Source: a candidate division WOR-3 bacterium
GTDB lineage: Bacteria > SDB-A
Direction of reading: 5' to 3'
Assembly: GCA_016934535.1 (NCBI GenBank)
Contig: JAFGSQ010000006.1
Span: 1-64,000, forward strand
Length of the DNA stretch: 64,000 nt
Below, in pieces: positions 56,417-59,104 of the stretch; position 1 is the first letter of the stretch; every line of letters starts with the position of its first letter. The notes under the pieces are model-generated. The model saw only the letters and a program-made list of their open reading frames with translations, had not been told where the DNA came from and searched no databases. A program made the position numbers and the translations under genes.

Positions 56417-59104
56417 TCAGATTTTTTCTATTTTTACCGCGCAAGCTTTGTATTCGGCGGTTTTCGTGTCAGGATCAAACACGTTGTTTGTCAGCCAGTT
56501 CGCATTTCCTTCCCTGAAATGAAAAGCCATCCAGACCAGACCGGGTGGAATTTTTTCCGTCACTTTCGCCCTGACTTTCACCGATCCACGGCGGGAGCTT
56601 ACTTTTATGTACTCACCGTCTTTGATTTTCATTTTTTTTGCGTCTTCAAGTGAAATGTCGGCTGTTTCTTCAGGCAGGATCTTGTCCAGCCCCACTCTTT
56701 TGGTCTGTGTTCTCGTGTGATAGTGGAACAGTCGGCGCCCAGTGCTGAGAACGAAGGGATATTCAGCATCTTCGACCTCCGCAGGCGGCGTCCATTCGAC
56801 ACCTTTGAACAGTCCTTTACCCCGGGAAAATTTTCCTTCTTTATGGAGAAACTTCGTTCCGGGATGTTCCACTGTCGGGCATGGCCACTGAAGTCCGTCT
56901 TTTTCTATTCGGTTATATTTTATCCCGCCGTAAGCAGGGGCGCACACCGAGATTTCGTTGTCCCAGATTTCCTGCGCGCTGTTGGACTGCCAGTCATGCC
57001 CCATGCGTTTTGCAATCTCCTTGAAAATCCACCAGTTCGGTTTTGATTTTCCGGGAGCTTCCTTGATTTTGCGCACGCGGTTGACACGTCTTTCGCTATT
57101 TGTGAATGTTCCTTCGTCTTCACACCAGGCCGCCGCTGGAAGTATGACGTGGGCAAACCGTGTGGTCTCAGTCGGGAATATGTCGTTGCATACAATAAAC
57201 TCTGCGGAAGAGAGTTCATGCTCGACATGTGTGATGTTAGGTTCAGAATTTGCGAGATTCTCGCCGAATATATAGAAAGCCCTGACTTTATTTGTCGGAA
57301 GTCCGGCCATCATATCGGGAAGCATCAGTCCCACTTTGTCAGAAAGATTTGAAACGTTCCAGAACTTTTCGAACTTTTCTTTATTTTTCGGATCGGTAAC
57401 CGCCTGGTATCCAGGATAAACATTCGGTAGAGCCGCCATGTCGCAGGCGCCCTGGACATTGTTCTGACCGCGAAGCGGGTTCACTCCGCCGCTTTCTTTG
57501 CCCATGTTTCCTAAAAGCATCTGGAGGTTGGCGGTAGACATGACGTTGTTTTTTCCGCATGTGTGTTCTGTTATGCCGAGCGTGTAACAGAGCATGGCGG
57601 GTTTGACAGACGCCATCGTTTTGGCTATTTCTATGATTTTCTCGGTGGGAACACCGGATATAATTGAGGCTTTTTCGGGCGGATAGTTCATGACCGTTTT
57701 TTTAAGTTCCTCAAAATTCTCGCAGTTTTCCTCGACAAACTTCTTGTCGTAGAGATTCTCGGTTATCAGAACATTCATGATGCCATTGAGAAAAGCAATG
57801 TCCGAACCCACCTTTATCTGTGCAAAAATGTCCGCCTTCTTAGCCAGATCGTGTTTTCTGGGATCGGCTACGATAAGCTTTGCGCCTTTTTTCTTTGCGC
57901 GTTTGACGAAATACGAAGCCACGGGATGCGCTTCCGTCATGTTTGTGCCGATCAGGAAAAACATCTTGGCGTTTTCAAATTCACCGAAAGAATTTGTCAT
58001 CGCACCGGAACCGAAGGTAGTTGCCAGACCGGCAACTGTCGGAGCGTGTCAAGTTCGTGCGCAATGGTCAATGTTGTTTGTGCCTACGACGCTCCTGAAA
58101 AGCTTCTGCATGTTGTAGGAGTCTTCGTTTATGCTCCTCGCACAGCTGACAGCAGCGAGAGCATCGGGACCGGATTCTTTCAAAATCTGCTTGAATTTGT
58201 CAGCGACCAGACAAAGAGCTTCGTCCCAGTCTGCTTCCCTGAACTTGCCGTCTTTTTCCCTTATCAGAGGAGTCGTAAGTCTGTCTTTATCATAAATGAA
58301 GTCGTAACCGTAGCGCCCTTTGACACAAAGATGCCCTTGATTCGGTTTCGCTTCATCAACTCCTTTGACTCTTACAATCTGATCCCCTTTAACCCACAAC
58401 TCAAGCTGACAGCCCACACCGCAGTATGGACATGTAGTTCGTACTTTTTCTATCTCCCAGGCCCGCGCTTTTCCCATGCCTTTTTTGTCCACCAGGGCTC
58501 CTACAGGGCATAACTGAACGCATTCCCCGCACTGAACGCACGTTGAATCTCCCATCGGACTGTCCTCATCGCAAACTACTTTTGTGTGTCCGCCCCTGTA
58601 TCCAAAATCAAGAACTTCATTGACCACAAGATTGTTACATCCCTCTATACAGCGTCCGCACTGAATACACTTGCCGAAATCTCTCATTATGAACGCGGCG
58701 CTTTCGTCCTTCTCCTCTTTCTGTTCGACCAAAAAAGCAGGTACTTCAATTCCAAGATGATAAGCGGCGTCCTGAAGTTCGCAGTCTCCGTTGCGCTCGC
58801 ACGACAGACAGTTGTGATTCCCGTTGGCTAAAAGCAGGTTGACTATCATCTTGCGAGATTCAATAATTGTTTCAGTATTCGTCCTGATTTTCATCTGGTC
58901 TGCCGCCGCCAGCGAACATGAGGTCTGCAGTCCTCTCATGCCCTCTACCTCTACAACGCATATTCTGCACATGCTCGCAGGACCGATTTTGGTATGATAA
59001 CAGAGCGATGGAATGTAAATATCATTCTCCCTCGCAACCTGAAGTATTGTTTTATCACCTTCAAAGGTTATCTCTCTTCCGTCGATAATCATTTTTTTGC
59101 TCAT
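56417..59104 (-). CDS. fdhA: Selenocysteine-containing formate dehydrogenase catalytic subunit
   Basis: 895 residues when the in-frame UGA at 58049-58051 is read as selenocysteine (codon 352); both halves are in one frame, AAGGAG precedes the start. N-terminal [2Fe-2S] cysteines 35, 46, 49, 63, an HxC..C-type cluster near 99-108, two 4Fe-4S ferredoxin sets (146-156 and 189-199), and the molybdopterin-domain 4Fe-4S set (Cys225, 228, 232, 260). Around the UGA the text reads [17 protein letters not shown], the active-site loop of formate dehydrogenases. It oxidises formate to CO2 or runs in reverse and passes electrons to the NuoEF-like partner encoded 17 bases upstream. A SECIS hairpin follows the UGA. 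Alternative: hydrogenase-linked CO2 reductase; no such genes are visible. Confidence 0.92.
58019..58048 (-). promoter_or_regulatory. Bacterial SECIS element for UGA-selenocysteine readthrough
   Basis: Immediately after the UGA (58049-58051), the minus-strand RNA forms a 7-bp stem (58031-58037 with 58019-58025) capped by the five-base loop GGUCU (58026-58030). Eighteen bases separate the UGA from the loop. To my knowledge E. coli fdhF also has GGUCU at the same distance, and SelB reads that loop. It lies within the coding region, as bacterial SECIS elements do. selA, selB and selC are not in the window. Confidence 0.85.

Follow-up and report, generated by a model that had tools for sequence, protein, structure and literature searches.

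A formate dehydrogenase gene, fdhA, lies on the minus strand of the window (the whole 64,000-nucleotide stretch of DNA analysed here), a strand that had been left unstated in the original prediction. It has a fused NuoE-NuoF gene directly upstream and two DUF364 genes further upstream, while modA, modB, a modC-like gene and a gene for an FmdE-family protein follow downstream. The features of the locus are as follows:

53578..54165, minus strand: FmdE-family protein with a zinc finger (PF02663)
54185..54898, minus strand: modC-like ABC ATPase (best family TIGR02142, under the cut-off)
54889..55551, minus strand: modB, molybdate permease (TIGR02141)
55552..56340, minus strand: modA, molybdate-binding protein (TIGR01256)
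56417..59104, minus strand: fdhA, predicted NAD-linked formate dehydrogenase catalytic subunit, 895 aa, with Sec352 (ORF read-through, TIGR01591)
57996..58054, minus strand: SECIS element (Rfam RF01989, SECIS_3; 43.1 bits, below the Rfam gathering score of 63; E 6.6e-9, computed on a 251-nt stretch)
58019..58037, minus strand: apical stem-loop of the SECIS, 7 bp AGUUGCC/GGCAACU with loop GGUCU (folding, comparison with E. coli fdhF)
58049..58051, minus strand: in-frame UGA, predicted to be read as selenocysteine (Sec352, equivalent to E. coli FdhF Sec140; alignment)
59121..60839, minus strand: fused NuoE-NuoF (NADH:FMN diaphorase) partner subunit, 572 aa (Pfam/TIGR profiles)
61045..61872, minus strand: DUF4213/DUF364 putative heavy-metal chelation protein (Pfam)
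61800..62570, minus strand: second DUF364 protein (Pfam)

The list of open reading frames divides fdhA into two minus-strand frames, 58049-59104 (351 aa, terminated by TGA) and 56417-58000 (527 aa), and the prediction that these share one register and are split by a lone UGA was borne out, the codon being found at 58051-58049. The 48 nt between the listed frames are coding, because the start of the second is merely an internal ATG, which encodes a conserved Met inside the active-site region. Read through the UGA, the sequence forms a single gene from 59104 to 56417, encoding 895 residues and ending in a UGA codon, with no further internal stop and no frameshift in its 895 codons. The residues around the internal UGA are [30 protein letters not shown], and the codon falls at the position occupied by Sec or Cys in homologs.

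The protein has a NuoG-like N-terminus with 2Fe-2S, His-Cys 4Fe-4S and 4Fe-4S dicluster domains (Pfam), fused to a molybdopterin domain resembling that of FDH-H. It scores 839.9 bits against the formate dehydrogenase alpha subunit profile TIGR01591 (cut-off 666.25) and is identical to E. coli FdhF (taken, like the fdhF gene, from the MG1655 record) at 291 of 676 positions. Cys8, Cys11, Cys15, Cys42, Lys44, His141, Arg333 and Gln335 of the E. coli enzyme are all identical in FdhA, so that the catalytic His, Arg and Lys are present, and the alignment places the UGA on Sec140, within the active-site loop to which it had been assigned. The solved structures close to FdhA include those of HDCR FdhF (7qv7), an F420-linked formate dehydrogenase (9t1s), which has X at the Sec site, and the NAD-dependent formate dehydrogenases 6tg9 and 7vw6.

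Immediately 3' of the UGA, the sequence folds into a SECIS that corresponds to Rfam SECIS_3, although Rfam at its gathering thresholds returned no match in the window and the element is visible in E-value mode only. Across the genome at E <= 1 the same model gave two matches, of which the fdhA site was the top one and the other was at a second formate dehydrogenase gene on contig C47. Published criteria for bacterial SECIS elements specify a loop of 3-9 nt with G in one of its first two positions, an upper stem of 4-16 bp, 16-37 nt between UGA and loop, and a minimum free energy of -7.5 or lower (PMC13188914); the fdhA element has a 5-nt loop, a 7-bp stem, a spacing of 18 nt and, for the stem-loop alone, -10.1 kcal/mol. 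The original prediction had placed the stem-loop 18 bases past the UGA; it is the GGUCU loop that begins at 18 nt, whereas the stem begins at 11 nt, and the spacing does agree with E. coli fdhF, where GGUCU occurs at the identical offset.

The folding energy of the SECIS was not significant when compared with shuffled sequences (z -1.1), and we therefore examined covariation among relatives. We collected 75 related loci, most of which have TGA at the Sec site, and retained 61 distinct sequences with TGA at the site and at least 50% identity. One pair of the stem joins the third base of a Val codon to the third base of an Ala codon, both synonymous positions; it is Watson-Crick in all 61 sequences and is variously C-G, U-A, A-U and G-C. 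Of 4095 third-position pairs it has the top rank, both by mutual information and by pairing, and the pair ranked second is its neighbour in the stem. None of 10,000 column shuffles reached its value; such shuffles ignore relatedness, while the ranking against other pairs from the same sequences retains it. Covariation of these synonymous sites reflects selection for the SECIS, and is evidence for selenocysteine that is independent of the other checks. Among the Cys homologs (six loci) the lower stem is mostly lost, in what is a small sample of 9 sequences, some of them distant paralogues.

The machinery for selenocysteine insertion, for which the original prediction had proposed a search of the genome, is present in full. 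The selA (421.7 bits, E 1.5e-126) and selB (308.7 bits, E 3.1e-92) genes stand in tandem on contig C53, behind selC, and selD is on contig C43 (L020:1408-2436, minus strand; 361 bits), with a NifS-like aminotransferase gene just upstream. The identification of selC rests on joining two contigs, since C53 begins (L010:1-87) and C71 ends (L011:1-85) inside the tRNA-Sec gene; they overlap by 79 nt, and in the joined stretch ARAGORN calls a tRNA-Sec with anticodon UCA and an 8-bp acceptor stem. ARAGORN did not call the gene in the unjoined contigs because it is cut at the contig ends, and the overlap indicates that C71 and C53 should be joined. The selD gene has an in-frame UGA of its own, at the active-site Cys/Sec position (motif AG-U-AAKIGP), which is a known Sec site in SelD. 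The formate dehydrogenase on contig C47 (FdhA2; L130:4577-6739, minus strand) is also of Sec type and reads [18 protein letters not shown]. With FdhA, this gives at least three selenoprotein genes in the genome. The C47 enzyme, which also shows [15 protein letters not shown], is without a NuoG-like N-terminus; the genes that come after it encode Fe-S and flavin reductase-like proteins, and it has orthologues in both congeners, each with one in-frame TGA.

In accounting for the UGA we need to consider explanations other than selenocysteine. Some homologs have Cys at the site, as would be expected if the codon were a sequencing or assembly error for TGC or TGT, yet the TGA and a compensating stem recur in 60 other, independently assembled relatives, and the full set of sel genes is present; we consider such an error highly improbable. 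A genuine stop, dividing the locus into two separate proteins or marking a decaying pseudogene, would accord with the two frames that a gene finder would list, but is hard to reconcile with an otherwise open frame of 895 codons, with a second frame that starts inside the active-site region at a conserved Met, or with the selection on synonymous sites, and we give it the same very small likelihood. Least probable of all is a variant genetic code in which UGA is read throughout as another residue, such as Trp or Gly. While one UGA is indeed read within the frame, TGA terminates 8 of the 15 window genes examined, fdhA included, and where read-through of a UGA was noted in a functional gene, it was at a known Sec site (FdhA, FdhA2 and SelD). 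UGA being a normal stop in these genes, the recoding is site-specific and does not reflect a changed code.

The mid-gene stop codon is, judging from the sequence, almost certainly read as selenocysteine. The original interpretation of fdhA as a selenoprotein gene is thus supported by the sel genes, the SECIS match, the FdhF alignment and the covariation, and we have very little doubt that 59104-56417 encodes the selenocysteine-containing catalytic subunit of an NAD-linked formate dehydrogenase, with SelB and the SECIS directing Sec to residue 352. In the mechanism that we propose, SelB carrying Sec-tRNA(Sec), the product of selC with its UCA anticodon, would bind the stem-loop that closely follows the UGA on its 3' side, and Sec would enter at residue 352, the expected Mo or W ligand of the active site.

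The combination of NuoG-like N-terminal clusters with a NuoE/NuoF partner gene suggests that FdhA and NuoEF are of the NAD-linked FdhAB type, with NAD as the probable partner. An electron-bifurcating formate dehydrogenase of the HylABC/FdhA type would have a HydB-like subunit carrying additional 4Fe-4S domains at its C-terminus, as well as more electron-transfer subunits. We rejected this candidate, the extra subunits and domains being missing at the locus: the only domains Pfam finds in the NuoEF partner are thioredoxin 2Fe-2S, FMN, SLBB and one 4Fe-4S domain, and no additional electron-transfer subunit adjoins fdhA and NuoEF in the ORF list or by Pfam. Under the NAD-linked reading, FdhA-NuoEF would be a reversible formate:NAD+ oxidoreductase whose metal is ligated by Sec; electrons from formate would pass through the N-terminal Fe-S clusters of FdhA to the fused NuoE-NuoF and on to NAD+, or the reaction may run in reverse as CO2 reduction. 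The likely role of the modABC and FmdE genes is in the supply of molybdenum or tungsten and in maturation.

Selenocysteine in formate dehydrogenase is textbook knowledge, and many anaerobic bacteria read a UGA within this gene as Sec. E. coli FdhF and its SECIS share with our locus the Sec residue, all active-site residues checked and the placement of GGUCU, with 34 of 54 nt identical in the SECIS region. However, FdhF functions in formate-hydrogen lyase and has no NuoG-like N-terminus, while at the fdhA locus the upper stem is a perfect 7 bp and there is a NuoEF partner. The catalytic subunits of 6tg9 and 7vw6 are homologous to FdhA over their full length (E about 1e-198), but are presumably Cys enzymes. 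The make-up of FdhA and its partner is that of the NAD-dependent FdhAB of the deep-sea Chloroflexi DscP3 and An-B22 and the NADP-dependent Sec-FdhAB of Moorella thermoacetica, which have the N-terminal Fe-S domains in FdhA and an NAD(P)-binding FdhB with thioredoxin-like 2Fe-2S; An-B22 and Moorella FdhA also contain Sec, as here (PMC5736913). Our locus differs from these in that modABC and FmdE adjoin fdhA, and in its host, which is of another lineage.

The most similar loci come from Spirochaetota and Chloroflexota metagenome-assembled genomes (MAGs; L021-L025 and L027), in which Sec-FdhA is 80-83% identical, the TGA and SECIS are kept, NuoEF adjoins, and FmdE is nearby wherever the contig extends far enough. 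NuoEF adjoins FdhA throughout L021-L027, at 74-77% identity. Unlike L021-L025 and L027, other loci (L026 and those of Syntrophaceae) have modABC adjacent to FmdE, and the FdhA-ModABC-FmdE arrangement recurs in the latter. A DUF4213/DUF364-related gene follows FmdE at six of the related loci.

Congener copies of the flanking genes that were tested show about 70-84% identity, and the contig therefore belongs to the genome. The two congeners hold nothing above 51% identity to FdhA or above 41% to NuoEF. In one of them (G001), the orthologues of two window genes (62632-63408 and 45639-46370) are separated by no more than about 330 nt, which means that some 16 kb, including the formate dehydrogenase module, is missing there; the segment corresponds to about 46400-62600 of the window. 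The best matches to FdhA (76-83%) are in MAGs of Spirochaetota, Chloroflexota and Deltaproteobacteria, and this, together with the absence from the congener, makes lateral acquisition of the module likely, loss in the congeners being the alternative. The GC3 of FdhA is 0.52, compared with 0.34-0.47 for its neighbours. Only three genomes in a sample of 60 relatives are of the same family, the others sharing the domain alone, so the lineage is sparsely sampled. We lean towards a history in which FmdE, modCBA, Sec-FdhA and NuoEF were gained laterally as a whole module by one species, which would already have had the Sec pathway for another formate dehydrogenase and for SelD, and to which NAD-linked formate metabolism would have been added in one step.

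No bacterial selenoprotein is more widespread than FdhA, which occurs in 67 of 75 Sec-using organisms (PMC1794560; see also PMC13188914), and finding a known type here is therefore of low surprise and leaves the general view unchanged. The finding corrects annotation, as standard gene finders would split fdhA. For a poorly sampled lineage it contributes an NAD-linked Sec-containing formate dehydrogenase and at least three selenoprotein genes, and it offers a clean case of synonymous-site covariation marking a true SECIS. At several related loci (L024, L025, L027, L058, L059 and L087), a second, distant Sec-type paralogue resembling formate dehydrogenase lies no more than a few kb away from the first, its UGA followed by HSPSVA or HSATVA.
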